DNA of 52,760 nt from Desulfobacterales bacterium (GTDB lineage Bacteria; Desulfobacterota; Desulfobacteria; Desulfobacterales; JALSRD01): contig JALSRD010000061.1 in assembly GCA_026984935.1 (NCBI GenBank), positions 1 to 52,760 on the forward strand, given 5' to 3'. Shown piece after piece: positions 1,611-52,760 of the stretch (position 1 is its first letter; every line of letters starts with the position of its first letter). The notes below the pieces were generated by a model, which made no database searches, had not been told where the DNA came from, and worked only from the letters and a program-made list of their open reading frames with translations. The translations under genes and the position numbers were made by a program.

Positions 1611-2476
1611 CTTCACCACGCAGCCTGCTGAAATTCGCGGATCTTGTTGCCAAAAAACAGCTGGGCCAGCATTTTCTGGCCGATGCGCACATCGCCGAGG
1701 CGATTGTTGCGGCGGCCGGAATCGGGCCGCGCGACACCGTCGTCGAAATCGGCGCCGGCTTGGGCGCCCTGACGATCCCGGCGGCACGCGCGGCCGGAAA
1801 GCTTTATGCCGTCGAGCTGGACAAGCGACTGCTGGACCTGCTGAGCACCGAGATCGTGGTCAGCGGTTTGCGCAATGTCGAGCTGATCCACAAGAATATT
1901 CTGCGGCTGGACGTTGCGGCACTGTGCGTATCACCCGGCGAACGGCTGGTGGTCCTGGGCAACCTGCCCTACAACATTTCGTCCCAGGTGCTGGTCGGCC
2001 TGATCCGGGCCCGCGACCGCATCGACCGGGCGGTGCTGATGTTTCAAAGGGAACTGGCGCAGCGCATCACGGCGCCGCCCGGCAGCCGAACCTACGGTCG
2101 GCTCAGCGCCATGCTGGCCTACTGTGCGCGCATCAATAAAGTGCTTACAGTGGCGGCTGACCGTTTTTTCCCCAAACCCAAGGTCGATTCCGAGGTCCTG
2201 AAAATCACCTTCTTCAAGGATCCACCGCCGCGCAGCCGCCGGGAAGACCTTCTCTTCGCCGTTATCAAGGCCGCCTTCGGCCAGCGCCGCAAGACCCTTA
2301 AAAACGCCTTGGCCAACAGCACGCTGGGTATCGACGGCACAACCATACATCAGGTGCTCAAGTCCGCCGACATCGATCCCCGCCGCCGCGCCGAGACCCT
2401 TGCGGCCGCAGAATTCCAGGCCATCGGCCGGGCACTAGAACCACTGGTGACGCCGCCGGACGTGCAAAAACCCTGA
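1607..2476 (+). CDS. rsmA: 16S rRNA dimethyladenosine transferase RsmA/KsgA
   Basis: Encodes 289 residues, slightly longer than the usual ~270. It dimethylates two adjacent adenines near the 3' end of 16S rRNA using S-adenosylmethionine, a late step of 30S assembly. Visible motifs in order: KKQLGQHFL at the N-terminus, the SAM-binding loop VVEIGAGLGALT, VELDKRL for the adenosine-binding acid, and the catalytic NLPYNIS. The C-terminal helical domain contains RRKTLKNAL. The ATG at 1607 overlaps the end of the decayed antitoxin frame by four bases. Downstream the reverse-strand phosphofructokinase gene converges within 6 bases, leaving essentially no room for a separate terminator. Confidence 0.95.
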   Translation: MTSPRSLLKFADLVAKKQLGQHFLADAHIAEAIVAAAGIGPRDTVVEIGAGLGALTIPAARAAGKLYAVELDKRLLDLLSTEIVVSGLRNVELIHKNILRLDVAALCVSPGERLVVLGNLPYNISSQVLVGLIRARDRIDRAVLMFQRELAQRITAPPGSRTYGRLSAMLAYCARINKVLTVAADRFFPKPKVDSEVLKITFFKDPPPRSRREDLLFAVIKAAFGQRRKTLKNALANSTLGIDGTTIHQVLKSADIDPRRRAETLAAAEFQAIGRALEPLVTPPDVQKP

Positions 2477-2482
2477 AATCCG

Positions 2483-4582
2483 TTAGGTATCCCCCTGCCC
2501 CAGCGCGTTTAAAAAAAGCGTCAGCGGCCGGTCCTCCTCGGTCGCCCCGCTCAGGTGGATGGGTGCCGGGCTGCGGTAGTGGTCGGGGCCCGGCTCGGCG
2601 GCCAGCCACTGCTCGCGAAAGGCCTTGACGACCTGAAAAGCGTTGGAGTGGATGTCCACCAGGCTTTTCTCCAGCACCAGCGCCAGCTTGCCCTTGCGCT
2701 CCTCCAGGTGCATCAGCGGAGCGATGGGGATCCCCACGGGCTCCCAGCGCTCGAAGTCCAGCTCCAGGTTGCGGATGGCGGCCATCTGACCGGTAACGCC
2801 GTTGGCGATCAGGCTGAACACCGTCAGGCCCAGGTTGTAGGTGTACTTGCAGTCGAAGCGTGTGGGGTGGCTGCCGCGGCCGTCGTAGCCGTAAAAATGG
2901 ACCTGGGTCTTGAACTTGGGTACCGATTTCTTATAGATTTTCAGCACCGCGGCCGGCACTTCCTCTTCTCCGTCCTGCATGCCGGCATCGGCCAGCACCT
3001 GTCCGAGGGTTTTTTCGGATATAATGTCGGCTTTCATCAGCAGGTAATGCGCGCCGGGATTGCGGAATAAAACCGGCGCGTAGGCATCGGCATCCAGTCC
3101 GCCCTTTTGCATGACCTGCCGGTAGTAGCTGCTCTCGATGCCCATCTTGTAGCGCCCCTCTTCCCAGAGGATGTCCAGGTAGTCTCTCACCAGGCCCATG
3201 ATGACCCTTTCGGTCTTGACCTGCGAAAACTGGAAGTTGCCGTGGCTGTCGCGCTCGGTGAGCAGACCATCCTGGAAAAATTCCGGCAGATCGTTGAACA
3301 GATCGTCGTCGCGTTCATTCCAGATGGCGATGGCGCCCTGCTCCCTGGAGCGCCGGGCCAGGCGGCGCAGATACTCGAGCTTGTTTTCCAGCAGCGGGTG
3401 GTCGGCGTGGAAATCGCGGTCGTGCGTGTGGTTGTACTCACCGATGATGGTGTTGAGCTTGACGATGAACACCTGGATTTCGTTGATGAACTCCAGGACC
3501 CCCTCGGGGATGACCAGCACGCCGCAGTTCTTGCCCACCGCGGCACGGCGCACGATGCCGTCGCAGACCACGCGCGACAGGTGCCTGAGCGTCATGCCGT
3601 AAGCGTTGAAATCCACGTCCCCGCGCCGGCGGGCCTTCTCCAGGCGTTCGGTATCCACGTAGTCGGCCAGGTCCTCGCCGATGAGCGTCATGTTGGCGTG
3701 GGTCTGCAGCGCCACCTCCAGGGCCAGGTGGCTGGCCGAACGCCCCATCACCTTGCAGATGTGCCAGTACTTCATGTCGGAATTGCAGTCCGTGCACAGG
3801 TTGCTGACATTCTGTGCAAAACCGCGCGCGGCACTGTGAAATCCAAAGGACACGGCGCACAGCACGCGTCCGTCCGCATCCTTGACCTGCACATCGCCGT
3901 CGATGGTCTTGGGGACACCGATAACCTGGACCCCGTCCTCCAGCATCTCCTGCGCCAGGAAGGCCGCGTTGGTGTTGGAGTCGTCGCCGCCCACGATGAC
4001 CAGGGCATCGAGCCCCAGCAGTTTGCAGGTCTCGCGGGAAAGCTGCATTTTCTCAGGCGTGTCGATCTTGGTGCGCCCGGTCTTGATCATGCCGAACCCG
4101 CCCAGGTTGCGGTGGGCGTCGACGATTTCAGCGGTCAATTCGACGCTCTGGTTTTCAATGATGCCGTCCGGCCCCATCAAAAACCCGTAAACGCGCGAAT
4201 CGGGGTTGGCCCGTTTGGCGGCATCGTAGAGGCCGGCGATCACATTATGCCCACCGGGTGCCGGGCCGCCGGAAAAAACGATGCCGATATTGCGGCGACG
4301 GGCGTAGTTTTCCCGCTGTCCGGGGGCCAGCGCATCGCGTCCCCTGACCACCTGTACCCGCCCACCGATGATCCCGGGCAGCCGGCGGCGGGTTTCGCGG
4401 TCGATTTCGAAGCGGTAACGCCCGTCGGCCTCAAGCACGGTGTAGGGTTGATCGAAGACGGCGCAGATCGGCGGCTGGTCCTGCTGCCGTGCAACCAGGG
4501 CCGGGTTATGGTCCTTCACAATCTCGGCAACTTCCGGCAGCCGCAGCAGGTCTTCTATGGCGGTATTGCTTTTCTCTGGCAT
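2483..4582 (-). CDS. pfp: Pyrophosphate-dependent 6-phosphofructokinase, long form
   Basis: Encodes 699 residues. It phosphorylates fructose 6-phosphate with pyrophosphate, a reversible glycolytic step (EC 2.7.1.90). The N-terminal nucleotide/PPi loop reads GIVFSGGPAPGGHN; IVGGDDSNTNA has the GGDD aspartate typical of PPi-using enzymes; PKTIDGD supplies the lysine and catalytic aspartate region; MGRSASHLALE is the sugar-phosphate loop. These match the long plant/spirochaete-type clade, although 699 residues exceeds the ~550 of many members, with extra length at the N-terminus and after the catalytic core. The start is backed by GGAGGAG just upstream of the ATG. It is divergent from the FAH-family gene and convergent with rsmA. 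Confidence 0.9.
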   Translation of the reverse strand: MPEKSNTAIEDLLRLPEVAEIVKDHNPALVARQQDQPPICAVFDQPYTVLEADGRYRFEIDRETRRRLPGIIGGRVQVVRGRDALAPGQRENYARRRNIGIVFSGGPAPGGHNVIAGLYDAAKRANPDSRVYGFLMGPDGIIENQSVELTAEIVDAHRNLGGFGMIKTGRTKIDTPEKMQLSRETCKLLGLDALVIVGGDDSNTNAAFLAQEMLEDGVQVIGVPKTIDGDVQVKDADGRVLCAVSFGFHSAARGFAQNVSNLCTDCNSDMKYWHICKVMGRSASHLALEVALQTHANMTLIGEDLADYVDTERLEKARRRGDVDFNAYGMTLRHLSRVVCDGIVRRAAVGKNCGVLVIPEGVLEFINEIQVFIVKLNTIIGEYNHTHDRDFHADHPLLENKLEYLRRLARRSREQGAIAIWNERDDDLFNDLPEFFQDGLLTERDSHGNFQFSQVKTERVIMGLVRDYLDILWEEGRYKMGIESSYYRQVMQKGGLDADAYAPVLFRNPGAHYLLMKADIISEKTLGQVLADAGMQDGEEEVPAAVLKIYKKSVPKFKTQVHFYGYDGRGSHPTRFDCKYTYNLGLTVFSLIANGVTGQMAAIRNLELDFERWEPVGIPIAPLMHLEERKGKLALVLEKSLVDIHSNAFQVVKAFREQWLAAEPGPDHYRSPAPIHLSGATEEDRPLTLFLNALGQGDT

Positions 4583-34169: not shown

Positions 34170-35570
34170 CTACAGGTCGATGGCGTAAAGCTTGATTTTC
34201 TGCAGCAGCGAGGGATGGCTGATCTCCAGCAGCCGGGCCGCACGGGTGCGGTTGCCGCCGGTGGCCTCCAGCGCGCGCCGGATCAGGCGCTCTTCCATCA
34301 TGCGTCGGGCCGCTTTCAGCGAAAACCCGCCGAAAATATCGTCCATGCGGCGGTTTCCCGCTTTGGCGCCCAGTTCGGCCGGCAGGTTTTCCGGCAGCAC
34401 CACTTTTTTCTCCGCCAGCACCACGGCCCTTTCAATGACATTCTCCAGTTCCCGCACATTCCCCGGCCAGGGGTGCTTCATCAACATGGACACCGCCGCC
34501 GGCGCAATCCCCTGGATGTCCTTGTTGAGTTTTTCCTTGTAGCGCGCGATAAAGTGCCGACACAGCAGCGGAATGTCCTCGAGGCGCTCCCGCAGCGGCG
34601 GCAACTGGATGGAGAGCACATTGATCCTGAAAAACAAATCTTCCCTGAAGTTTCCCCGCCGCACCTCTTCTTCCAGGTTCTTGGAAGTGGCGGCAACCAC
34701 GCGCACGTCAACTTTACGCGTCTGCGAACCGCCGATGGGCCGCACCTCGCTCTCCTGCAGTACGCGCAACAGTTTCACCTGCAGCGACAGCGGCAGCTCG
34801 CCGATTTCATCCAGGAAAAGGGTGCCGCCGTGCGCCTCTTCGAACAACCCCGGTTTGTCTCTCAACGCGTTGGTGAACGCGCCCTTGGTATGGCCGAAAA
34901 ACTCGCTTTCCAGCAGGGTTTCCGGAATGCCGCCGCAGTTGACCGGCACGAAGGCGCCTTTGGCGCGGTTGCCGTCAGAGTGTATGCCGCGCGCCACCAG
35001 CTCTTTTCCGGTGCCGCTTTCACCGGTGATCAGCACCGTCGTGCCGTACTTAGACACTTTTTCGGCCAGTTTGAACACCTCGCGCATGGCGCGGCTCTTG
35101 GCCACCATGCGGCCGAAACAGAAGTCACCCTCGATGTTCCGGATACGCGCCTTCAGGAAGCGGTTTTCACGTTTCAGGTTTTCACGCTCTTCGGCTTTTT
35201 TCAGCGTCAGTACGACTTCGTCGATCTTGAAAGGCTTGGAAATATAGTCGTAGGCACCTTCCTTCAGGGCCGTCACCGCAGTGTCGATGGTGCCGTAGGC
35301 CGACATCATGATCACCGTAGTGGCGGCCAGCTTTTCCCGTGCGGCTTTCAAAAAGGCCATGCCGTCCATATGGGGCATTTTCAGGTCGCAAAGCACAAAG
35401 TCGTAGTTTTTGCGCGCGATCATGGCAAGCCCGCTGCGGCCGTCCAAAGCAGTGTCCACACAGTAGCCGGCACGTTTGAGAATGCGCGCAAGCATGTCGC
35501 ACATGTTTTCTTCGTCGTCGATGATCAACAGCTGCCGGCTGCCGGCCCCGGTCTCAGGTTTCTGCGCCAT
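34170..35570 (-). CDS. NtrC-family sigma-54-dependent response regulator
   Basis: Encodes 466 residues. The receiver domain has the acidic pair DD at 18-19, phosphoacceptor Asp62 in [11 protein letters not shown], and the switch residues MMSAYG and SKPFK. The AAA+ domain has Walker [12 protein letters not shown] and Walker [14 protein letters not shown]. The sigma-54 contact loop reads GAFTNA rather than the canonical GAFTGA. A Fis-type helix-turn-helix closes the protein ([20 protein letters not shown]). It overlaps the end of the histidine kinase gene by 17 bases, so the pair is a two-component system. The regulon is unknown; the export operon upstream is an obvious candidate. Confidence 0.93.
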
Positions 35571-37131
35571 ATCGCCCTTCCTGTGCTTTGCGGCCGGTCT
35601 GCGCCAACGGCAGGAAAACCTGCAGCGTGGTGCCTTCCTGCAGCCGGCTTTGTACTTCGATCCTGCCGCCCATGCTCTCGATGAGCATGATGCTCACCGA
35701 CAGCCCCAAACCCGTACCCCGGCCCGGCGCCTTGGTGGTAAAAAAGGGATCGAAGATGTTGTCTATGTGCTCGGGAGAAATCCCGCTGCCGTTGTCGCAG
35801 AAGCGTAGCTCGATCATCCGGCGGCCGGTATCGGTCCGCTCGTCGGCCAACCGGCTGGCGACGCTCAGGCGGCCGTCGTCTCCAGCGGCGGCGTGAATGG
35901 CATCGGCGGCATTGATCATCAGGTTGAGAAAGACCTGCCGCAGCTGGCCCGTGTCGGCTTTTACACGGTCTTTGTCGGCTTTGAGATCCAGCACCAGTTC
36001 GATGTCCGCGGTCAGCGGCTGCAGGCGGAATATATCGGCCAGCTCTTCGATCAGCGCGTGCACGGAGACCTCCTGCGCATCGACCGTACCGGACGGCCGC
36101 GAAAAATCCAGCAACTGCCGGATAATGGCATCGATGCGCGCCAGTTCGCCGGCCGCCTTTTCAATGCACGCCCGTCTCTCTTCGTCAGGCAGCTCCGGCT
36201 GACTGAGCAGTTCCAGGTACCCCATGGCGATCCCGATGGGATTGCCGATCTCATGGGCGATGCCGGCCGACAGCCGGCCGGCGGCAGCCAGCTTCTCGGC
36301 GCGCACGATTTCCCTCTGCATGCGACGCAGGTCCGCATTGGCCTTCTCCAGGGAGGCGACACTTTCGCGCAGCTTGTGCCTGTTTTGCTCGATGCGCTGC
36401 AGCATGCGGTTTAAGGCCTGGGAGAGACGCGTGAATTCGTTGCTGCCGGAATCGGGCAAAAAGAACATGTCGTCGTCAACTTCTCCGGCGGCTTCGGCGC
36501 GCTGCACGATGCGCTGCAACGGCCTGACCGTCAGTTTCGACAGTTTATAAACCCCGAAAAGCGTCAGGAAAAGCGTGTTGATCAAAAGGTATGCCGCCAG
36601 GCGTGGATGAGTCTTGCGAATGCGGGCGTAGACCCCGTCCAGGTCCCTTACAAAGCCGATCCCCCCCACAACCTGCCCGGCGTGCATGAAGGGTGCCGCA
36701 ATCAAAAGTTCGCGCGGCTGTTTCCACACAACACCCCAGGTGCTTCCATGCAGGTTCGCGGTGGTCTTTAGCGAACGCATGACCCGGCGCACGGCGGCGG
36801 CGGCGCCGGCACTGCCCGGGCAGCCCCGGTTTCCAAAGCTCAGGCGCCGCCCGTCGGGTCCCAATACCAACGCACAGGCATAACCGCCCTGTCTGAGCAC
36901 ATTATGCAGACTTTCGATAAACTTGCGGTTGAACAAATAATCCGCACCGCCGCCGGCAAGTTCGGCATAGTCCTGCAGCATGCCGGCCACCAGGCGCCCT
37001 CTGACAATTTCTGCGTGCACCAGCATGTTGCGCAGGTTGATCAGCATCACCAGGCCGATGAGTACCATGGCCACCACCAACACAAGAGCCGTGTGCACCG
37101 CGATATTGATTTTCAACCGATAACCGAACAT
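35554..37131 (-). CDS. Membrane sensor histidine kinase, partner of the NtrC-type regulator
   Basis: About 525 residues from the ATG at 37131 (MFGYRLKINIAVHT). TM1 (VLVVAMVLIGLVMLINL), a periplasmic sensor of ~140 residues and TM2 (AAYLLINTLFLTLFGVY) are followed by a HAMP-like segment, a coiled coil and a HisKA domain with the phosphoacceptor histidine in GIAHEIGNP. The ATPase domain has NLMINAADAI (N box), DNGSGISPEHI (G1) and GRGTGLGLSVS (G2). The ligand is not predictable. It lies 161 bases after the M50-HlyD gene in the same direction, so it may be read from that operon. Confidence 0.92.
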   Translation of the reverse strand: MFGYRLKINIAVHTALVLVVAMVLIGLVMLINLRNMLVHAEIVRGRLVAGMLQDYAELAGGGADYLFNRKFIESLHNVLRQGGYACALVLGPDGRRLSFGNRGCPGSAGAAAAVRRVMRSLKTTANLHGSTWGVVWKQPRELLIAAPFMHAGQVVGGIGFVRDLDGVYARIRKTHPRLAAYLLINTLFLTLFGVYKLSKLTVRPLQRIVQRAEAAGEVDDDMFFLPDSGSNEFTRLSQALNRMLQRIEQNRHKLRESVASLEKANADLRRMQREIVRAEKLAAAGRLSAGIAHEIGNPIGIAMGYLELLSQPELPDEERRACIEKAAGELARIDAIIRQLLDFSRPSGTVDAQEVSVHALIEELADIFRLQPLTADIELVLDLKADKDRVKADTGQLRQVFLNLMINAADAIHAAAGDDGRLSVASRLADERTDTGRRMIELRFCDNGSGISPEHIDNIFDPFFTTKAPGRGTGLGLSVSIMLIESMGGRIEVQSRLQEGTTLQVFLPLAQTGRKAQEGRYGAET

Positions 37132-37292
37132 AAGCACCGCATGGTAGGGGAAAATGCAGGCCGCGGCTGGCGAAGCGTGGCTGTCATCCAGCCGCATCTA
37201 CTGGATTTGGTTGCGAAATTAACACAGCTGCGCGGGGATTGCAAACGGCTTCAGCGCCGGGCTGCCAAAACACACCCAAAAGCCGCGCCCGC

Positions 37293-39425
37293 TCAGCGAA
37301 GGCCCAGCTTGTGGAACAGGTAGGCTTGGGCAACATCGGCGACGGTTTTACGCCGGCCGGGCAGGCACACCGTGGCCAGCTGGCCGACCATCAGTTTATT
37401 CAGTATGGCTTCAGGGGGCTGGACCTCGGCGCCAAAGCGCGGCCTGAAGAATTCAAAGCGCGTGGCGGCAGTGGATTTTCCCCCCGCGGCACGCACCTGG
37501 CGAACATCGATGGGGCCGCCGAAGGCCGCACTTAAGGCCGGATAGGGAATCTTTCGGTCAGCCCGGGGATCGACCCCATGCAAACGCCCGTCAAACACCG
37601 GCAGGCCGCATGGCCGCATGTCCACTTTGACCGTCTGGCCCACGGCACGGCGAAACGCCTGCACGTCTTCCTGGGCCAGTGAAACACGGATCACCTTGCG
37701 TTGGGGGGTCACCACCCACAGCACTTCACGCCCGCGGCGCAAAAAGACACCCTGGAGGTGATCCAGGTCACTTCCCACCACAACACCCGCCACCGGTGAA
37801 CGCAGCGTAAGGTCGCGCACGTCGCGCTCCAGGGCCTCCCTGCGGTGCTGTATCGCGGCGATATTTTCCTTGACGATCTGAAAGGCGCTCAGGTTCTGTC
37901 GGTTGAAATAGCGCCGGGCCTGGATTTTCAGGGCGTCGAGCTGCAGGCGCGTATCGGCAAGGTCAAATTCGATTTTACGATTTTCCAGCTGCAGCAGCGT
38001 CTGGCCGGGCCGTACGCCGTCTCCCGTATGCACATCGACACGTTTCACGAATCCCGGTGTGCGGGCTTTGATCACCGCCTGCCGGCGGTACTGCACGACC
38101 GCCGGCGCGCGCACGCGCGTGGTCCAGCCCCACTGGAAGACCAGGAAAAGCGCCGCCGCCGCAAAAATCGCCAGGCTGACCGCCAGGCGCCGACCGGCGG
38201 CGGGGTTGGCCCCGCGCAGGGCGGGAAAGCGTTTGATAAAACCGTAAAGCGGCATACCCACCCATACGGCAATGCCCAGAAATGCCATGATCCGGCCCAT
38301 GCCGTGAAAAAGCCGGCTGGCGCCGATGGACAGTCCCACCAGCACCAGGATGCGCCACCAGTAAACGGCGACACCGTAGACTTGGAGAAAAATCCGCCGC
38401 CAGCCGCTGTAACGCGCGGCCGGCAGGCGGATTCCCAGAAACAACGCCCGGAACCAACCGTACACCACTTCCATTCCATGGGCGTACAGGTTGGGGATCC
38501 CCGTCAGGTCAGACAGCACATAGTAGCCGTCAAAACGCATGAGCGGGTTGGCGTTGAACAAAACCGAACTGACACCGGCCACGATGACCACGTTGTGGGC
38601 AATCACACCGCCAATGCTCTGCATGTGCAGTGACCAGAAAACCAGGGCCACGGCGGCGACAAAGGCCTCCATGTACATCCCGGCCATATCCAGGTGGATG
38701 CGCTGCCACCGGGAGGGGAAATTCCAGGAAGAGGTGGCGTCGACATAGGTCAGCGGAATGGCCACGATAAAGAGAATGCCGGCCTCGTGCACATCACCGC
38801 CGTATTTGCGGCAGACCACGGCATGCGACAGTTCGTGGAGCACCTTGAGGAAAAACCAGGCCAGCCAGAGCCAGACCAGGTTGCGGGCCGCCAGCAGGTT
38901 TGCGGCCTGCAGCCTGAAGGGCTGCCAGTTCACCGCCAGCGCATAGGCGGCCCACAGAAATACCGCCATCCAGAGCAGAAAGAATCCCGGCCCGGTCGTC
39001 CAGCGGAAAAAGGGATAAATCTTCTCCAGAAGCTTTCGCGGATTGAACAACGGCAGCCGGAAAACAATCAGGTTGAGGCGGCTCCAATGGCTTAGGCGTT
39101 CCTGCCGGCGTTCGGCCAGCCAGCTCTGGTCCAGCGCCAGAGAGCTGCCCTGGATGAGCAGCTGGTTGGCGGAAAGCCAGCTTACGAGCGCCTCCACCTG
39201 CACCTGGGAAAACGCGTCTTCCCCCAGAAGCTCGGAAGTCCGGCGCAGCGCCTCTCTCAGGGTGCGTTTGCCATCCAGCTGGCCGATCAAGAGGTATTCC
39301 CGGCTGCCGATACGGTAAAACTTCTGCCGCACCGGATCTTCCAGCACGTAAGCGGGCGGCTTGCGACCGAAGTGCACCGCAAATTTCAGGTCCTGCCGGA
39401 GTTTCAGAACAATCTCTGGGTCCAT
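37293..39425 (-). CDS. Polytopic M50 metalloprotease with PqqD-like N-terminus and HlyD-like C-terminus
   Basis: Encodes 710 residues. Residues ~20-95 resemble a PqqD-like winged helix (YVLEDPVRQKFYRIGSREYL). A multi-helix M50 (site-2-protease) region at ~115-430 has the zinc motif HELSH at 197-201 and the second motif NANPLMRFDGYYVLSDL at ~291-307. After a final helix (~415-430) comes an HlyD/biotinyl-lipoyl hairpin (VIKARTPGFVKRVDVHTGDGVRPGQTLLQL to LRSPVAGVV) and a beta-barrel part, presumably periplasmic. It is the last gene of the giant-protein export operon. With both metal motifs intact it may process the cargo or another component, or serve as the inner-membrane export platform; neither has been shown. 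Confidence 0.85.
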   Translation of the reverse strand: MDPEIVLKLRQDLKFAVHFGRKPPAYVLEDPVRQKFYRIGSREYLLIGQLDGKRTLREALRRTSELLGEDAFSQVQVEALVSWLSANQLLIQGSSLALDQSWLAERRQERLSHWSRLNLIVFRLPLFNPRKLLEKIYPFFRWTTGPGFFLLWMAVFLWAAYALAVNWQPFRLQAANLLAARNLVWLWLAWFFLKVLHELSHAVVCRKYGGDVHEAGILFIVAIPLTYVDATSSWNFPSRWQRIHLDMAGMYMEAFVAAVALVFWSLHMQSIGGVIAHNVVIVAGVSSVLFNANPLMRFDGYYVLSDLTGIPNLYAHGMEVVYGWFRALFLGIRLPAARYSGWRRIFLQVYGVAVYWWRILVLVGLSIGASRLFHGMGRIMAFLGIAVWVGMPLYGFIKRFPALRGANPAAGRRLAVSLAIFAAAALFLVFQWGWTTRVRAPAVVQYRRQAVIKARTPGFVKRVDVHTGDGVRPGQTLLQLENRKIEFDLADTRLQLDALKIQARRYFNRQNLSAFQIVKENIAAIQHRREALERDVRDLTLRSPVAGVVVGSDLDHLQGVFLRRGREVLWVVTPQRKVIRVSLAQEDVQAFRRAVGQTVKVDMRPCGLPVFDGRLHGVDPRADRKIPYPALSAAFGGPIDVRQVRAAGGKSTAATRFEFFRPRFGAEVQPPEAILNKLMVGQLATVCLPGRRKTVADVAQAYLFHKLGLR

Positions 39426-44492: not shown

Positions 44493-47400
44493 TTACAAAC
44501 TGCTTTGGGCTGGATTGGTGGACGGCACGAAAAATTCGTAGTCGTAAAAATCATCCCATCCCAGATTCAGCGGATGATGGTTGACCCCCTGCATGGCATC
44601 GAGAACGGCCGAAGGGGTGGTGGCAAAAACGGCATGCGCCGAAAGATCGGTGCTGGAGAACAACTTGCTCTCTGTTGCCGGGCTGAAATAGGTGCGCAGG
44701 TTGAACCCCCCGGCCGTGCTGGCGTTGTATGTCGACGGCACCTGTTCAATGTGCAGGTGGTGCGGTTCATCGAAAATCAGCGTACCCGCAAAAGTACTCA
44801 GCCAGTTCCCGGCCGCATCGGCCATGACGGTTTCATATCCGATACGGTCTCCCAGGGCATCGTAGAGATCCAGCCGCAGAGTCGTGCCCGGCTCGGCATA
44901 TCCGCTGTAGATCGGCGACACCGGAATCAGGGGCGGTTCAAAGACACGTGCGCGGGCCGGCCGCAACCAGGGCTGCTCATCCAGGCGCTCGAAATAGCGG
45001 TCCAGCGACGTTTCCACGGCGTGCGCCTCCTGGCGCTCAAACAGCACATCGAAGGCAAACTGCGGACCGGCGGGCTGGCCGGGGACCACGGACGGGGCCG
45101 GTGTCCCATGTCCACCCGACGGCGCCGGTACCTGGGCCGGCGGCTGAGGCGGCAAGGCATAGCCGAAGTCCGCATCCAGGCGCGTCTGGCTGGCAGCAAG
45201 CTGCAGCGTGATCGTGCCGTCCAGAACACCGTCGGGGTCGAAGGTCGCCCGCATGCCCGGCGGCAGCGTGGCCGGATCGACGCTGACCGTGTGTCGGCCG
45301 GCCGGCAGGTGCTCGAAACGGTAGGTGCCGTCGGGGCCGGTGACTGTCGTGGCGTGGTAATCCGGCGTCCCGTCGCCGTTTAAATCGACCCCCAAAGTCA
45401 CCTGCACGCCGGCCAGGCCGGATTCGCCGCCGTCCATCACACCGTTGCGGTTGGCGTCGTTCCAGATGGTGTCGCCGATGACGCCGCTGCCGGTATAGCC
45501 GAAGTCCTGGTCCAGGTTGGTTTCGCCGGCGGACAGGGTCACGGCCGTGGTGTGGTCCGGCACACCGTCCGGGTCGGCGCTGGGCTGCATGCCGCCGGGC
45601 AGGGTCGTATGGTCAACGGTAACCGTGTAACTGCCGTCCGGCAGATTGTCGAAAAGATAGTGGCCGTGGGCGTCGGTGACCGTGGTCAGGGTTTCGTCGA
45701 TCCCGTCGTTGTCAATGTCGCCCACCAGGGTGACGGTGACGCCGCCGATGCCGGCTTCCCCGGAATCCTGGTGGCCGTCGGCGTCGGCGTCGAAAAAGAT
45801 GAAATCACCGATGGCCCCCACCGAGGCATAACCGAAATCCATGCTGTTGTTGACCTCGCCGACACCCAGGTTCAGGGTGCTGTGGTTGTCCAGCACGCCG
45901 TCGGGATCGGCGCTGGGCGAAAAGCCCGAGGGCAGGCTGGCGGCCGCGACGCTGACGGTATAAGCACCGGCCGGCAGGTGGTCCACATGGTAATTACCGT
46001 CGTTGTCGGTGGTGACGGTGGTGGTAAACTCGGCGATGCCGTCGCCGTCCACATCACCGCTGACGGTCACCTGCACGTTGGCGATCCCGACTTCGCCGGC
46101 ATCCTGCACACCGTTGTGGTTGCTGTCAAAGAAAATAAAGTCGCCGATGGCGCCGGTGCCGGTGTAGCCGAAATCCACACTGTTGTCGGTGGCGCCGGCG
46201 GCCAGGGCCACCGCCGCGGTGTGCGCCGTGGCCGTGCCGTCGGCGTCAAATGTGGGGTGCCAGTTGGCCGCGCCGGCGGGCAGCGTGGTATCCTCCACCG
46301 TGACCGTGTAGTCACCGCCCAGCAGATGGTCGAAATGGTAGGCGCCGTCGTTGGCCGTAACGGTGGTGGTCGTGTAATCCGGATGACCGTCGCCGTCGAT
46401 GTCGCCGGAAAGGGTCACCGTCACGCCGGCCAGGCCGGCATGCGCACCGTCGTTCTGCACGGCATCGGCATTGCCGTCAAACCAGACGAAATCGCCGATG
46501 GCGCCGGTGCCGCGGATACCGAAATCGATGTCGTCACGGTCCTGGTGGGCGGCCAGGGTAAAGGGTGTGGCGTTGTCCGGCGATGCCGTGTGGCTGTCCT
46601 GGTCGTAGGTGGCCTCGGAGCCGGCCGGCGGGGTCACGCGGACGTTGTAGTCTCCGGCCGGCAGATGGTCGAACTGATAGTGGCCGGCGGCGTCGGTGGT
46701 GGTCGTGGCCGTGTACTCCGCGACACCGTCGCCGTCGATGTCGGCGGTCAGCGTTACCGTCAGATTCCCGATGCCGCCTTCCCCGCTGTCCTGCACCCCG
46801 TCGGCGTCGGCGTCAACCCAGACCGTATCGCCCACGGTGTTCTGGCCGGTGTAGCCGAAATCCACGTCGGTGCGCTGCTGGCCGGCCGCCAGGGCGACAT
46901 GGCTTGCGCTGTGAGGCGTGGTGGCCGCGCCGTCCAGATCGTAGGTCGGGCTGAATCCGGCCGCTGTCAGGTCGGTGGGCTGGGTGCCGCCGGAAGTATT
47001 CGGATCCACAGTGATCACATAGTCGCCGAAGGCCGCCAGGTTATTGAAGGTGTAGTGCCCGGCGGCGTCGGTGCGTACAGTTTGACTGAACTCCGGCGTG
47101 CCGTCGCCGTCCACGTCGGCCGTGATCGTCACGTCCACGCCGGAGATACCTACATCGCCGCCGGCTGCATTGAACGTGCCGCCGTCGCCGCCGGCATCGA
47201 AAAAGACCGTATCGCCGATGGAACCGTCGGCAACCACCGCAAAAGCCGCTGAAGCGGTGTCCTGGGTGCCGTCCACCGGCGAACCCGGCCCGGTGTGGCC
47301 GTCGTCATAGGTGCGGTTGACCGGGTTGAGCGTTCCGAACTGGCTGCTCCAGTCGGCGTCCACGGTGTTGGTGTGGCTGCCGGCCGCAAAGCCGGCGCCC

Positions 47401-50400
47401 ATGACCTGGACCGCGTACTGCACTTCGATATAGCCGTTTTCCGGGATGCGCCAGGTACCCGGCGCGGTGCTGTCAAAGGAAATCGTGCCGTCGTGGTGGT
47501 CGGTGATCATGGTGGTGCCCGTGATATCCGTCGAGCTGTGGCCGTTGTTGAAGGCCGCATGGATCAGGTGGTCAAAGGAAGTTCCCGGCGCCAGGATATC
47601 ATCGGCGGTCACGTTGTAGGCCGTGGCATCACCGGTATTTGTAAAGCGCGCTGTGTAGGTCAGGATTTCGCCCGGGGAAGCATCCGTGCCGGCATCGGCG
47701 GAGTCAACCACGCTCTTGGTCGTGGTGATCTGGGGTTCGATGACCGTGATCGTGGGATCGGTGGGATCGTGCACGGTGACCGAAGTTCCCGGATGCGCCG
47801 GATCGTCAAAGTGCATGGCGGCGTGGTTGGTCAGCGTGGTGGGATCAAAGGCCGCGGTGCCGGGGTCATCGCCGTGGTTGCCGGCCACATCCTCGACCAC
47901 GGTCTCCACATGGATGACGAAACTGTTATCAGTCGCATTGTTGTTGGCGGTAACCGATACATCACCGAAATCAAAAAACACATCGCCGGCGTTGGTCGTC
48001 ACCGTGGGGTGAGTGACATCGGTGGGGCCGCTGAAACCGGTGGCATCCACCGAAGAGCCGAGATAGGCCATGCCGTCGGGCAGGTCGTCGCTGACGGTCA
48101 GACCGTGCGTACCGCCCTCGGAGAGCGTCACCACGATATCGTAGGTCACATGATCGCCGATGGTATACTGTGCGCGCGCGGGATCCAGCTTATCGATGGC
48201 GCCGGAAACGGAGATGACCCCCGGATTGCTGTGGGTGTAATTGTTGGCCGCCCCGCCGATGCCGCCGGTATCGCCGGTGCGTTCGCCGGAGTCCGCGTTA
48301 TACGGCGATATCTGCGTGTTGTCCGCGTGGTGCTCGGCATCCAGGCTCTCCCAGGTCACGGTGCCAGTGTTGGTGATCACCTGGCCGGCGGTGGCGGTGT
48401 TCAGCACGCCGCCGGTGACCAGAAACGTGGTTGCATGGCCCAGGTCCAGCTTGTCCCAGGTGGCGGAAAGCACGCCGGAAGCAAAGCTCTGGGAAGTGGG
48501 CGCATCCCCGCTGACCACGCTGACGCTGGCCGACGACCAGTCCACGGCCGCCGGCAGGGTGTCGCTAAACACGGCGTCGAAGGCGTCTTCGTGACTGGCG
48601 GCGCTGTGCTGCACGGTAATCCGGTATTGAACGGCATCGGCCTGGTCGTAATGCACGGCGTGGGCCGTATCGTCCGCATCCACCCAGGCGGATGTCGCCG
48701 GGTCCCAGACTTCCTTGTCCACCTGCAGGTCGGGCTCCTGCACGGTGACGTCGGGCGCGTGGGCATTTTCATGCAGCTGCACGCCGCCGGGGTTGTCCCA
48801 CTGCCACGCGGCGGCGTTGTTGAGCTGTGTGCCCTGCTGGTTGCCGGAGGTGTTTAACACCACCGCGGTGTAGGTCACGGTAATCGTTTCGTCGGCATGG
48901 TCGCTATCGCGGTCTGGATTGGTGAGGTTGCCGAAATCGATGCTAAAATCGTGCCCTGGTGACGCAAGGCCGTTTTGGGCATCGGTCAGCACCTGGTTCC
49001 AGCCGCCGGCATGGTCGGTCTGCAGGTCACCGTGCTCGATGGCATCGATGCTGACGATGGCCAGCCCGGGATCCAGCGTATCGGCCAGATGCACGTTGTG
49101 CGACTGGCCCTCGGGCACGGTAATTTGCACCTGATACTGCACGGTTTCACCGATGACCACGTCGTTGCCGGCAGTGGACGTCTCGCCGGTACCGACGATC
49201 GTTTTGGCCACCGCCGGCCGGGCCATGGTCACCGTGGCCGTGTCGTGCGGGCCGTCGGCGTCGCTGGGATAGTGGTCCGGACCGCCCTCGGTGCCGGCCA
49301 CGTCGGCCACCGCGGCCGTGTTGGTGATGTGCTGCGCGGGCTGTACACCGTCTGCGGCCTGCAGGTCGTAGGTGATCACCACGATGTTGTCGGTCTGATC
49401 AAGGCCGTCATGGTTGGCGTTCAGCGCGCCGTCGGCGTCATCGGCCAGGACGATGCCGCTGAAAAAATCAAAGCCGGCGCTGCCCGGCGCATCCCCGCTG
49501 GCGTCGGTAAAGGAAACGGCGCTGCCGTGGCCGTCGGTCACCGACAGGTTCAGGCCGGAACCCGGAACCGCAAAGCCGGCGGGCAGGTCATCGGTAATTT
49601 TAACGTCGAAAGCGCCCGAGTGGCCCACGTTTTGGGCCACGATGGCAAAGGTCACCAGGTCGCCGGCATCGATATGGCTCAGGTCGGCATCCACGGGATG
49701 GAGTGCCAGCCCGCTTTCGGTGATATCGCCGCCGCCGCGGAAACCGCTGCTCCCGGGGGCTGAAAAAGTTACCGGGCCCACGTCAGTCGGGGAAAACTGC
49801 CCGTCCGGGTTGTCGGTGGCCACCACGCCCTTGGTGATGTGCAGATCCGGCTCGTCCAGCACGATCTGCACGATGGCGTCGGTGTGGTTGTCCGCCAGGG
49901 GTGTGCCCTGTTCGGTGGCACGGACCTGGTTGGTCAAAAACAGCCCGTCGGCAAATGGTTTGTTGGAGGCGGTGACGGTAAAGAGGATATCGACGCTGCT
50001 ATGGGTGTCGCTGCCGTCGTGGTAGGGTGCCCAGTCAAAAACCAGGGCATTTCCGCTTTGGGCGGACACTGCGTCAAGCTGGACCCCGGACAGTGTGTGG
50101 TAGGTATCGCCGGCCGTGTAGGCCCACTGCCCGGCGCCGGGAAGCGTGCCATCGCTAGCCTTGCTCCAGCCGCTGGCCGTGCCGTCCTGGTCCGGATCGT
50201 GGACATCAAAGATCGGCAGCGGCAGGTAGTCGTTGAGATGGAAGTCCTCGGTGCTGGAAATCGGCATGTCGTAGTGCAGGTGATAGGTGACCGTATCGCC
50301 CGGCGAGATGTGCGGGTTGGGGCCCACGCCGGTGGCGCCGTTGATGGCATAAATGTCTTTTTCCACCGATCCGGTGACGATCTGTATGACGTCGCAGGAG

Positions 50401-52760
50401 GCGTCGGCCTCGCTGTGCCCTGTAAAGGCTGACGTGCCGGGGTCGTAGACCTCCCCCGTGATGGCAACCCCGCTGTCAATGATGTCGCCCTGGTCCACGT
50501 CGTTATCGCCGCCGCCGCCGGTTTCGCTGTGGTAGGCCTGTGCAATATCGGCCTGGTAGGTGATGCGGCCATGGGTGGGGCCATCCGGGTGTCCGTCGAC
50601 CAGGTCTCCGTTTAACCTACCGCCTGTGACGCCCATGCCGGACAGGATCTGCTGCAGGTTGTAATGCACTTCCAGGTCATGGCCCGCGCTCAACGTGGTC
50701 CACATGCCATCCCCGGCCGTGCCGGAGTCTGCCAGGGTGCGGTGGTAGTGGTTGCCGTTTTCCCAGATATCGATGGTGGCCGTGAAATGCCCGCCGGCAT
50801 CCGTATGCATGGCCAGGCCGTCGGCCACTACATCGTCGATGCGAAAACTGTAGTCACTGTCCGTCAAATCATGGTCACCGAAAGAGAAGTAATCCGAGAC
50901 CTGGAAGTCCAGGCTGTAGTCCAGGGTGTCGCCGGGAGTAGGACCGGCTGCACCGGTATCCTGCAAAGTATGGGCTTTCTGAATGGCGATGGACTGGGCG
51001 TGGGAGATATCGTCCACATCGGGGTTGCTGGAAAAATGGCCGTCGGCATTCACCTCGGCATTGATCGTGTCCGCCACATGGCTGTCGTGGGGATCGTGAG
51101 GATTCCAGCCATAGTCCACCTCGCCGTTGTTGACGACGTGCGCAACATCTCCGGTGGCAGGATCGATAACCGGGCTGCCGGCAGCGGTTTGATCCGGCAC
51201 GTAGAAATCGTAGCGCACCACGACATCCCCATGCCCGGCGCCGCCGGTTACGGTATTATTCAGCGAAACGACCAGGTCCTGGCCGCTGTGCACGCCGCTG
51301 CCCGGTGACGTGACGCTGTAGTCCGTCCCCTGGGTCAATGCGACGCCTCCGGCCGTCACCGAAACGGTTGCATCGCCGAGGTAATAGATATTGTCCGGCA
51401 GGTGTTCCGTAAGGGTGAGCCCCCCGTCGACGGTCTGGCCGTCGGCAATGTCGATACGCGCCACGTAGCTGGCCGGAAAGTTGGGCCCGGTGGGAATCTC
51501 CTGGTGGTTGACTTCAAAAGTCCGGCCGGCATCATCGGCCCACTGCCGCGTGTCGTCGTGGGCCGGATCGTGCTGCTGCTGGCAGTCACCGGCGACCTGG
51601 GGTACTTGGATATCCGCATTGTAGGTGACGACTTCGGGTTTGTAAGTCGTCTGGTGGGTGGCGATATCCCGCAGGGGATGATCGCCCGTGGGGTTGTCCA
51701 GGGCATCATGGCCGAACATGGCGCCGGTGGTGGTATGCACGCCAAGGTCCACACCCACGTCGGCATTTTCGCTCATGTGGGCGGTGACCACCACATCGGC
51801 GGACGGCTGGTCCGTGGTAAAGGAGCCGAAGGGCATGCGCAGGGAAACGAACTGGTCGCCGGCGTGAAACGTCTGGCCGCTGATACCGCTCAACTCCAGT
51901 GGTGCGCCGCTGTTGTCCGTGGCCCAGGGATGTTCGATAATCTGGCCGTCGGTGGTGATGTTGATGACGGTCGATTCCACATCGGCACCCAGATAGGTGG
52001 CATGGTCAAAAGTGATGCCGTCAACGGCGGCATCCGCACCGTCCTGGCCGCCGTCCAGCAGCATGTCGATGTAAGGCCCGTAAATCGTGCTGCCGGTGGT
52101 GTTGTCGAACGTGACCGTAAAAGTAAAGTCTTCGCCGATCATGGGATCGACGGCGGCATCGGCATCGGCGGCATGGGAAAGCCCGAGGGTCGCGTGATCG
52201 GCGGTTTCCGCCCCATCCGCATGTTGTTCGACGGTTTCCGTGGAATGTCCGTCCGGCGCGGTCGGGTCGTGATTATCCGGCGCTGCGGCCAGCGCATCGG
52301 TGTGGCCTTCGATGGGTGCCTGAGCGGCGGAATCCGCAGGGCTGCCGTTGGCGGACACCGTATGGGCGGCAGGGACCTGGGCGGGCGGGTCATGGTGAAC
52401 GGCAAGGTCCGCTGCTGCTGCATGCGTGCCGGAATTGCCGGTTGTGGCTGTGGCCTGCGCGTTTGCGGCATGGGTGCTGGCCGGCCCGGCAGGCGCGGCC
52501 GTGGGGTCGGCGGCCGCGGCAGGGACCGCCGGACCGTCAGCGTCATGGAGGGCGTTTTCGGACGGCGCCGCCGAATGCACCGTTACGTTTTGCGTGCCGG
52601 CCTGCGCGCCACCCGAGTTGCCGCCGGAGTCGGCGGCGATGCGCCCGGCATCCGCCGGAACTCCCCTGTCGCTCACCTTGGCAGGCGAAGCCGGATGGCT
52701 GTCCGGCGTTGCGGCGGTCCCGGTCGCCGGTTGCGCCGGCGGGGAAGCGGCCTCCTGTAG
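44493..52760 (-). CDS. Giant repeat-rich surface/adhesin-like protein (N-terminus outside window)
   Basis: At least 2755 residues; the frame is open through the right edge, so the GTG at 52676 need not be the start. The first ~200 visible residues are Ala/Pro/Thr/His/Asp-rich low complexity. About 600 residues of beta-rich modules follow, then several DUF11-like units (openings such as PDLHITKGV, RPAVAKTIV, PDLQVDKEV and PQITTTKSV, each with NT-type and DDLP strands), six SdrD_B-type repeats, a proline-rich linker and a unique ~190-residue C-terminus ending PSTNPAQSSL. Cysteine is nearly absent and there is no LPXTG or RTX nonapeptide. It is probably an exported, calcium-stiffened adhesin or biofilm protein, the cargo of the export genes immediately downstream. 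Confidence 0.85.
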   Translation of the reverse strand, partial: LQEAASPPAQPATGTAATPDSHPASPAKVSDRGVPADAGRIAADSGGNSGGAQAGTQNVTVHSAAPSENALHDADGPAVPAAAADPTAAPAGPASTHAANAQATATTGNSGTHAAAADLAVHHDPPAQVPAAHTVSANGSPADSAAQAPIEGHTDALAAAPDNHDPTAPDGHSTETVEQHADGAETADHATLGLSHAADADAAVDPMIGEDFTFTVTFDNTTGSTIYGPYIDMLLDGGQDGADAAVDGITFDHATYLGADVESTVINITTDGQIIEHPWATDNSGAPLELSGISGQTFHAGDQFVSLRMPFGSFTTDQPSADVVVTAHMSENADVGVDLGVHTTTGAMFGHDALDNPTGDHPLRDIATHQTTYKPEVVTYNADIQVPQVAGDCQQQHDPAHDDTRQWADDAGRTFEVNHQEIPTGPNFPASYVARIDIADGQTVDGGLTLTEHLPDNIYYLGDATVSVTAGGVALTQGTDYSVTSPGSGVHSGQDLVVSLNNTVTGGAGHGDVVVRYDFYVPDQTAAGSPVIDPATGDVAHVVNNGEVDYGWNPHDPHDSHVADTINAEVNADGHFSSNPDVDDISHAQSIAIQKAHTLQDTGAAGPTPGDTLDYSLDFQVSDYFSFGDHDLTDSDYSFRIDDVVADGLAMHTDAGGHFTATIDIWENGNHYHRTLADSGTAGDGMWTTLSAGHDLEVHYNLQQILSGMGVTGGRLNGDLVDGHPDGPTHGRITYQADIAQAYHSETGGGGDNDVDQGDIIDSGVAITGEVYDPGTSAFTGHSEADASCDVIQIVTGSVEKDIYAINGATGVGPNPHISPGDTVTYHLHYDMPISSTEDFHLNDYLPLPIFDVHDPDQDGTASGWSKASDGTLPGAGQWAYTAGDTYHTLSGVQLDAVSAQSGNALVFDWAPYHDGSDTHSSVDILFTVTASNKPFADGLFLTNQVRATEQGTPLADNHTDAIVQIVLDEPDLHITKGVVATDNPDGQFSPTDVGPVTFSAPGSSGFRGGGDITESGLALHPVDADLSHIDAGDLVTFAIVAQNVGHSGAFDVKITDDLPAGFAVPGSGLNLSVTDGHGSAVSFTDASGDAPGSAGFDFFSGIVLADDADGALNANHDGLDQTDNIVVITYDLQAADGVQPAQHITNTAAVADVAGTEGGPDHYPSDADGPHDTATVTMARPAVAKTIVGTGETSTAGNDVVIGETVQYQVQITVPEGQSHNVHLADTLDPGLAIVSIDAIEHGDLQTDHAGGWNQVLTDAQNGLASPGHDFSIDFGNLTNPDRDSDHADETITVTYTAVVLNTSGNQQGTQLNNAAAWQWDNPGGVQLHENAHAPDVTVQEPDLQVDKEVWDPATSAWVDADDTAHAVHYDQADAVQYRITVQHSAASHEDAFDAVFSDTLPAAVDWSSASVSVVSGDAPTSQSFASGVLSATWDKLDLGHATTFLVTGGVLNTATAGQVITNTGTVTWESLDAEHHADNTQISPYNADSGERTGDTGGIGGAANNYTHSNPGVISVSGAIDKLDPARAQYTIGDHVTYDIVVTLSEGGTHGLTVSDDLPDGMAYLGSSVDATGFSGPTDVTHPTVTTNAGDVFFDFGDVSVTANNNATDNSFVIHVETVVEDVAGNHGDDPGTAAFDPTTLTNHAAMHFDDPAHPGTSVTVHDPTDPTITVIEPQITTTKSVVDSADAGTDASPGEILTYTARFTNTGDATAYNVTADDILAPGTSFDHLIHAAFNNGHSSTDITGTTMITDHHDGTISFDSTAPGTWRIPENGYIEVQYAVQVMGAGFAAGSHTNTVDADWSSQFGTLNPVNRTYDDGHTGPGSPVDGTQDTASAAFAVVADGSIGDTVFFDAGGDGGTFNAAGGDVGISGVDVTITADVDGDGTPEFSQTVRTDAAGHYTFNNLAAFGDYVITVDPNTSGGTQPTDLTAAGFSPTYDLDGAATTPHSASHVALAAGQQRTDVDFGYTGQNTVGDTVWVDADADGVQDSGEGGIGNLTVTLTADIDGDGVAEYTATTTTDAAGHYQFDHLPAGDYNVRVTPPAGSEATYDQDSHTASPDNATPFTLAAHQDRDDIDFGIRGTGAIGDFVWFDGNADAVQNDGAHAGLAGVTVTLSGDIDGDGHPDYTTTTVTANDGAYHFDHLLGGDYTVTVEDTTLPAGAANWHPTFDADGTATAHTAAVALAAGATDNSVDFGYTGTGAIGDFIFFDSNHNGVQDAGEVGIANVQVTVSGDVDGDGIAEFTTTVTTDNDGNYHVDHLPAGAYTVSVAAASLPSGFSPSADPDGVLDNHSTLNLGVGEVNNSMDFGYASVGAIGDFIFFDADADGHQDSGEAGIGGVTVTLVGDIDNDGIDETLTTVTDAHGHYLFDNLPDGSYTVTVDHTTLPGGMQPSADPDGVPDHTTAVTLSAGETNLDQDFGYTGSGVIGDTIWNDANRNGVMDGGESGLAGVQVTLGVDLNGDGTPDYHATTVTGPDGTYRFEHLPAGRHTVSVDPATLPPGMRATFDPDGVLDGTITLQLAASQTRLDADFGYALPPQPPAQVPAPSGGHGTPAPSVVPGQPAGPQFAFDVLFERQEAHAVETSLDRYFERLDEQPWLRPARARVFEPPLIPVSPIYSGYAEPGTTLRLDLYDALGDRIGYETVMADAAGNWLSTFAGTLIFDEPHHLHIEQVPSTYNASTAGGFNLRTYFSPATESKLFSSTDLSAHAVFATTPSAVLDAMQGVNHHPLNLGWDDFYDYEFFVPSTNPAQSSL
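45156..47225 (-). repeat. Six tandem SdrD_B-type repeats within the giant protein gene
   Basis: Units start (reading right to left) at about 47225, 46842, 46505, 46154, 45818 and 45485. Each is ~110-127 residues, with the pattern (G/N).(I/V)GD..(F/W).D....G.QD.GE.GI..V.VT, then DxDGDG and DHLPAG.Y.V, and ends DFGY. The Asp-rich loops (DADADGVQDSGE, DVDGDG) look like calcium sites, as known for SdrD B repeats of staphylococcal proteins. The units differ by many substitutions, so they are old duplications and not recent copies. Confidence 0.88.
47226..50390 (-). repeat. Array of DUF11-like beta-sandwich modules in the giant protein gene
   Basis: At least six modules share an opening of the form (P/I)..(I/V).K.V followed by GD.V.Y.(I/V).(V/F) and a later (D)DLP.G segment, the pattern of DUF11/isopeptide-type surface domains. 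Boundaries are approximate. Lengths vary more than in the SdrD_B part, and several openings carry aspartate-rich inserts. Confidence 0.65.

Follow-up and report, generated by a model that had tools for sequence, protein, structure and literature searches.

A predicted PqqD-like/M50/HlyD fusion protein and its co-distribution with an N-terminal tag on giant proteins

The protein P0001, encoded on the minus strand at 37293-39425 of the window (52,760 nucleotides, which is the whole contig), joins in 710 residues a PqqD/RRE-like domain, an M50 core with intact metal-site motifs and a HlyD arm, the folds of all three being predicted. Its gene lies in a cluster with those of two adaptors, a TolC-type protein and a giant adhesin-like protein. 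In two phyla, the M50 protein occurs in the same genomes as a short N-terminal tag carried by giant proteins, and we think it probable that the cluster handles these tagged giants. The type of locus itself has been known since 2015; as far as our searches show, what is new here is the apparent cargo code, namely, an N-terminal tag on giants beside the M50 locus.

Architecture of P0001 and its gene neighbourhood

The open reading frame, which begins with ATG, the Pfam matches together with profiles of relatives, and the predicted folds agree for all parts of P0001, as anticipated by the initial annotation, which had read the protein as a three-part fusion. Prediction of the full chain, which that annotation had proposed as a check, gave a model with a pLDDT of 84 and a pTM of 0.59, so that the relative placement of the domains is unsure; a collapsed metal site was not found, its motifs being intact in the sequence. 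In the window's phylum, 20 genomes out of 395 have a match to P0001 of at least 100 bits (a selected set), and of 107 relatives (105 of them distinct) from the fetched loci, 106 carry HExxH at the corresponding position of the alignment, which argues against the three-part protein being a product of chance.

The N-domain comprises residues 1-92 (39150-39425, minus strand). It matches no Pfam family in the window's own protein, PF05402 included; among aligned N-domains of relatives, 27 of 59 match PF05402 (PqqD; best 2e-9), and the top PDB match of their profile is PqqD 3g2b (E 4e-4). Because a structure search with the full chain was filled with HlyD matches, the domain was folded alone with AlphaFold2 (pLDDT 90.9). 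The best structural alignments of this model are with RRE domains solved with leader peptides, that is, 5v1v (Z 10.3, rmsd 2.8 over 86 residues), 5v1u (Z 10.0) and 6jx3 (Z 9.6), and PqqD 5sxy aligns with Z 9.2. Foldseek returned nothing for the domain at E <=0.001, with RRE structures at the top at 0.026. The predicted fold is of the PqqD type; winged-helix-like parts of other enzymes tie with RRE domains by Z score (8hkr and GdmN 7vzz, both Z 9.6), and the sequence profile favours PqqD. In RiPP enzymes, the PqqD fold serves to bind leaders, as RRE domains do. That the N-terminus resembles PqqD and winged helices, of the kind that binds leaders, had been claimed from the sequence and is borne out by both profile and fold comparison. 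The likeness to PqqD and to lasso-peptide B1 proteins lies in the fold and in the profile similarity of relatives; here, in contrast, the domain belongs to a membrane protease that also has a channel adaptor, and its proposed leader would stand on proteins of thousands of residues.

The membrane core, about residues 130-430 (38136-39038, minus strand), is delimited by the model, structure comparison and hydropathy, the last giving seven hydrophobic segments after merging by hand. Pfam Peptidase_M50 matches residues 189-341 with 3.4e-6 and 27.0 bits, just below the gathering score of 27.2 bits, and the M50 assignment thus rests on fold and motifs. This part aligns to an RseP orthologue (7w6y, Z 10.5) and to SpoIVFB (8vjl, Z 10.3). 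Both metal-site motifs reported in the initial annotation are confirmed as intact, namely, HELSH at residues 197-201 (38823-38837) and the third-ligand motif NANPLMRFDGYY at residues 291-302 (38520-38555). P0001, whose membrane core has the M50 fold and contains both HExxH and NPxxRFDG, is a predicted M50 site-2 protease. It is like RseP and SpoIVFB in HExxH, NPxxRFDGYY and core fold, and differs from them by the fused PqqD-like and HlyD parts; Pfam at E 0.01 found neither PDZ nor CBS domains in it. Residues H197, E198, N291, P294 and D299 are kept in all 107 aligned relatives and H201 in 106, where it should be considered that 80 of the loci had been searched for with the NP..RxDxY motif as the pattern. 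The sole relative without HExxH, a 731-residue M50 reading frame (L089), has HEVAP instead, which may reflect a misassembly or an inactivated copy.

The positive-inside rule states that basic residues favour the cytoplasmic side of a membrane. Counted from hydropathy with the hand-merged segments, the loops of P0001 predicted to lie inside hold 0, 6 and 4 basic residues and those predicted outside 1, 0 and 0; the hydrophobic stretch 212-233 was left out as a membrane segment since the model has strands there. On this basis the PqqD-like domain and the active site likely face the cytoplasm and the HlyD arm the periplasm, in keeping with the placement given in the initial annotation. The arm itself (residues 433-694; 37344-38129, minus strand), with lipoyl halves, hairpin and barrel in the model, matches Pfam HlyD_D23 at 437-624 (8.4e-12) and HlyD_3 (1.6e-9) and aligns to MacA 9qgy with Z 15.6. 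By domains and predicted fold it is a HlyD-type membrane fusion protein.

All cluster genes of the window are on the minus strand, and follow one another in the direction of transcription as giant cargo, TolC-type factor, adaptor, GAF-HlyD protein, P0001, histidine kinase and sigma-54 response regulator. The successive gaps from cargo to kinase are of 24, 27, 454, 53 and 95 bases, followed by an overlap of 17 bases between kinase and regulator. The cargo frame (44493-52760), with SdrD_B, DUF11 and isopeptide-type domains by Pfam, is open at the contig end, beyond which it continues. P0005 (42681-44468, 595 residues) is a TolC-type outer membrane factor and P0004 (41790-42653, 287 residues) a periplasmic adaptor of HlyD/RND type, both by Pfam and NCBIfam. 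P0003 (39479-41335, 618 residues) is a GAF-HlyD protein by Pfam, whose most hydrophobic segment, 356-376, precedes its HlyD part. Downstream of P0001 lie the two possible regulators, a sensor histidine kinase (35554-37197; Pfam) and an NtrC-type sigma-54 response regulator (34170-35570; Pfam, NCBIfam). A search of the window for sigma-54 promoters gave one match, against 2.9 expected.

Type I secretion systems likewise combine a large cargo with HlyD-type adaptors and a TolC-type channel. The window's cluster differs in having no ABC transporter, the nearest one to the M50 gene found by pattern search in the window being 29 kb away, and in that the shared cargo tag is N-terminal. A secondary SecA is likewise missing from the window, and the genome, which is 99.45% complete, has a single SecA, an 848-residue frame outside the window.

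Relatives and the previously described locus

A scan of genome contigs with the single sequence found no relative of P0001. Scanning named genomes with a profile gave at least 591 places, of which the best 80 were used; record titles among these come from Desulfobulbaceae, Planctomycetes, Verrucomicrobia, gamma- and betaproteobacteria, Nitrospiraceae, Fibrobacter and others. Within the window's phylum, the match begins only after the N-domain in two (G186 and G281) of the 20 genomes with the M50 protein.

Our cluster census covered 108 loci with the M50 protein, two of which are second records of the same genome stretch. Within 6 kb of the M50 gene, profiles found a HlyD paralogue in 95 loci, an adaptor in 81, a SecA-like protein in 53 and an outer membrane channel (OEP) in 27, this last count being too low because the profile missed OEPs that Pfam found. 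The SecA-like proteins have about 630-830 residues by longest open reading frame, and the four that were scanned match Pfam SecA_DEAD, P-loop_SecA and SecA_PP_bind. Of the 20 M50 genomes in the window's phylum, nine carry such a gene in addition to a longer SecA; the other eleven, which include that of the window, have a single SecA. By a Walker/signature pattern, only seven ABC-type reading frames occur in the 108 loci, none of them less than 4.2 kb from the M50 gene. In one locus (L047, 12773-14479), a gene for a two-partner transporter of ShlB/FhaC type lies just downstream of the M50 gene and may offer another exit through the outer membrane.

A secondary SecA_DEAD / type I secretion-related locus with M50-HlyD, GAF-HlyD, HlyD and secondary SecA proteins and no ABC transporter has been described (Kamneva, Poudel and Ward 2015; PMC4452313), with the proposal that SecA is the ATPase and the M50 protein the pore, and with a broader biological role termed 'completely unknown'. 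A word search of the main text of that paper gave no mention of PqqD or LEPR, its locus sections name no cargo or tag, and a link between the locus and tagged giant proteins was not found in the open PMC literature searched, which yielded this one paper on the locus and two in which LEPR-XLL is named. The window shares with the 2015 locus the M50-HlyD protein, the GAF-HlyD protein and a further HlyD adaptor, together with an OEP, which some of the published loci have, and the lack of an ABC transporter; since its copy has no secondary SecA, we regard it as a SecA-less variant working like that locus rather than as a full member. Of the partners of P0001, the initial annotation had named the TolC-type protein, and had missed the GAF-HlyD protein, the second adaptor, the secondary SecA of relatives and the 2015 publication.

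The N-terminal tag and its co-distribution with the M50 protein

Giant proteins encoded near the M50 genes share a short N-terminal tag of about the form FExLExRxLLSADP, which corresponds to the NCBIfam model LEPR-XLL (NF012209; LEPR-8K). The cargo starts have a basic stretch, FExLExR, two hydrophobic residues, then L/F/Y, S/D and A/G, as in LEPRILLSGD of L032 (30.8 bits). A strict pattern found the tag near the N-terminus of 33 giant or contig-cut reading frames in the fetched loci. While L, E and R are set by this pattern, the adjoining positions are free, and of these, position -3 is always one of F, L, M, C, I and V (33/33), while position -2 is mostly E (26/33). The tag varies by group (LEPR..LLSAD, LEER..VLDAA, LEDR..LYDASP, among others), and of two LEER giants (L044 and L045), one scores 16.6 bits against NF012209 and the other is unmatched. 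A hydrophobic stretch of Sec type (18 residues, mean >1.6) is absent from 32 of the 33 tag regions. The strict tag is missing from 53 reading frames of at least 900 residues with their start in view, an unsorted set that includes M50 genes and antisense frames.

The initial annotation had pointed to the C-terminus of the cargo as the contact; the comparison made here, which covered N-termini, found the shared segment at the N-terminus. The related idea that the N-domain recognises a cytoplasmic segment of the cargo is supported in that the M50 protein is linked to a short segment of giant cargoes and that its N-domain is likely cytoplasmic, the segment found being the N-terminal one.

Several observations concern the range of tagged proteins. 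Open frames of 19,427 and 18,012 residues with a tag match are present at G463:C115:112871 and at G402:C10:53909, the latter in Thiomicrospira microaerophila (genome of L111), and to our knowledge rank among the longest bacterial reading frames. An M50 gene and tagged giants also occur together in Neptuniibacter caesariensis, which, like T. microaerophila, is an environmental relative that can be cultured. In Rhodopirellula sp. JC639 (G396, genome of L096), five frames of more than 1,000 residues match the tag at E <=0.002 and, at E <=0.1, nine do, with forms including LEPRIVLDADP, LEKRLLFSATP and FYLLEDRILLSADG, and one exporter may thus serve several cargoes. A seeming link of secondary SecA with S, and not D or A, at tag position +7 (9/11 versus 0/6 genomes, p 0.002, compiled by hand) was set aside as confounded by kinship and with exceptions in G082 and G135, where giant or contig-cut frames (L163 and L164, and L165, respectively) have the form FE[TP]LEPRLLLD[AG].

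The window ends within its cargo gene, and a very probable start was found on another contig of the same genome, C40. There, a tag at C40:312-380 scores 19.2 bits against NF012209, above the curated cut-off of 17, in a frame that runs off the end of the contig. Positions 1-185 of C40 agree with the terminal 185 bases of the window at all but 4 positions (97.8%); this overlap is in the cargo frame, and the two contigs encode a nearly identical protein across it. Given this overlap and the nearly same protein read in both, the N-terminus of the window's cargo very probably sits on C40, where the frame carries QLELLEDRIFLDANPL at its start, so that the cargo would begin with QLELLEDRIFLDANPL and contain the LExR tag LELLEDRIFLDANP; a further, nearly identical copy at another place in the genome would be a conceivable alternative. 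On the same contig (L156, G000:C40), a sigma-54-like site with one mismatch lies at 719-734 on the minus strand, about 100 bases upstream of the cargo frame, and beyond it a sigma-54 activator gene, which is adjoined by a gene for a Ras-family small GTPase (2398-2934, minus strand; Pfam Ras 9.6e-30). The search gave 4 sigma-54 matches at up to 2 mismatches against 2.0 expected, a number reached in 28 of 200 shuffles. As a lead only, the giant cargo may be under the control of the two nearby sigma-54 regulators.

NF012209 is a weak model of 24 positions. At E <=1 it matches 187 of the 395 genomes from the window's phylum as well as 7 of 14 control genomes; over its curated cut-off the numbers are 28 and 1, respectively. 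Tag counts are therefore given at three levels. Among the 395 genomes, 20 of which have the M50 protein, this protein is present in 9/11 tag genomes at E <=1e-3, in 12/15 at E <=0.01 (Fisher 2e-15, this and the other p-values being overstated because the sampled genomes are related) and in 15/28 at the looser curated cut-off. Several, not all, of the 13 remaining matches at this last level are in very short frames, of 12 to 115 residues. Counted by genus at E <=0.01, 11 of 14 tag genera have the M50 protein (1e-12). The three exceptions at E <=0.01 are G090, whose match is in a 115-residue frame, and G082 and G135, each with a HlyD stretch on the same contig as a short SecA-like gene (49% identity in G082; 53% in G135, where a contig end truncates it); their assemblies are of 610 and 300 contigs, and the missing M50 gene may be a gap. 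Conversely, five of the 20 M50 genomes (G089, G117, G186, G281 and G370) have no tag over the curated cut-off.

A second set, 299 genomes of the phylum of Neptuniibacter, gave the M50 protein in 94 genomes (at 1e-20), the tag in 61 (at 1e-3) and both in 60 (Fisher 3e-37). Of its 84 tag matches, 66 are in frames of at least 1,000 residues, the longest of 19,427. A listed M50 match is on the same contig for 38 of them, within 10 kb in 34 and farther away in 4, and the other 46 are on contigs without one. The tag at E 1e-3 is missing from 34 of the 94 M50 genomes, ten of which have weak M50 matches, and one tag genome, G674, matches neither M50 nor HlyD at 1e-5. Eight genomes of the profile scan contributed no row to the tag profile, and the tag is found in six of them at E <=1e-3 and in seven at E <=1. 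No tag was found in the genome of L076, a fragmented assembly that holds the closest relative of P0001 among the best 80 of at least 591 places.

The tag is also present in genomes with one SecA only (G000, which is the window's genome, G312, G102, G386, G098 and G014), and the M50 protein or another HlyD part is thus a likelier reader than the secondary SecA. Distances between tags correlate with those between the parts of P0001 to a similar extent (Mantel r of 0.54 for the N-domain, 0.53 for the core and 0.48 for the HlyD arm), so that the N-domain is not singled out as the reader; the co-distribution ties the tag to the cluster as a whole and not specifically to the PqqD-like domain.

Proposed role and alternatives

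From the folds, the motifs, the cluster, the tag and the co-distribution we infer export and its direction, tag binding, cutting and an energy source, as follows. We favour, with some reserve, P0001 as the inner-membrane receptor and leader protease of an ABC-less exporter by which giant adhesin-like proteins would reach the surface. The cytoplasmic PqqD/RRE-like domain would bind the tag as RRE domains bind RiPP leaders; this part of the reading we hold slightly more probable than its opposite, considering that the tag is present without a secondary SecA and that the PqqD fold is leader-binding in RiPP enzymes. The M50 core, with its active site near the cytoplasmic face, would cut at or beside the tag or open to it, where the chances of the putative cleavage seem evenly balanced to us. 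The periplasmic HlyD arm, the GAF-HlyD protein and the second adaptor would then connect the TolC-type channel with the inner membrane. The short secondary SecA of many relatives would drive the chain across, and in the window's variant the housekeeping SecA or another energy source may serve.

It is less likely, and on balance unlikely, that the M50 protein is mainly a membrane pore that replaces the ABC transporter, with a dispensable peptidase activity. Its pore part was proposed in 2015 (PMC4452313), and the rarity of ABC-type reading frames (7 in 108 loci, all at least 4.2 kb away from the M50 gene) as well as the fusion of a membrane core to a channel adaptor agree with it. However, a bare pore has no need of HExxH, and the metal-site residues are kept in 106-107 of 107 relatives, NP..RxDxY having served as the pattern that selected 80 of the loci; moreover, both roles can hold together. 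LapG releases the adhesin LapA by cleavage, and a somewhat similar arrangement, in which the tag is a retention anchor, the giant exits elsewhere with its N-terminus held at the inner membrane by the PqqD-like domain, and a cut by the M50 core releases it, we rate as a little more unlikely than the pore. The intact protease motifs and the adhesin-like cargo are compatible with an anchor, and so is a Vibrio giant described with an N-terminal LEPR-XLL and C-terminal RTX domains (PMC10868602), which could leave C-terminus first; yet ABC-type genes are rare by pattern near the clusters, where 53 of 108 loci have a SecA-type protein instead.

Two further explanations leave tag and protein functionally unconnected, and both are highly improbable. 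Tag and M50 protein might co-occur only via large genomes or shared lineage, without joint function, as the sampled genomes are related and the counts are uncorrected for genome size; against this, the association is seen in two phyla, holds for 11 of 14 genera in the first, and places 34 of 38 same-contig matches within 10 kb. A shade less credible still is P0001 as a RiPP-maturation protein of daptide or epipeptide type that acts on a small peptide, with the giants incidental. The daptide protease belongs to a RiPP pathway, and the daptide M50 model NF041824 (daptide_HExxH) is the best NCBIfam match of P0001, covering much of N-domain and core (residues 31-396); LiaK also matches, with 21.7 bits, and the N-domain is RRE-like. 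Nevertheless, both scores fall below their cut-offs, 148.4 bits against 300 for NF041824 and 21.7 against 225 for LiaK, the 379-position daptide model ends before the fused HlyD arm, and the linkage to giant proteins is found in two phyla.

Taken as a whole, the leader-protease exporter that we prefer may represent a separate Gram-negative secretion pathway, a proposal that we put forward tentatively, judging it a little short of even. In it, proteins as long as about 19,000 residues would carry an LExR leader that is read by an RRE-type domain and removed by the site-2 protease fused to this domain. Adaptor arms would pass the chain on to a TolC-type channel, and some variants of the pathway would be driven by SecA and others independent of it. 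The tag gives the locus type of 2015 a predicted cargo, which makes a direct test possible. If the proposal is true, many very large predicted bacterial proteins would share one export route, in which the leader code is of the same kind as in the enzymes of peptide natural products and a protease is fused to the channel adaptor. In addition, the LEPR-XLL domain, for which no function was found in the literature searched, would gain a role.
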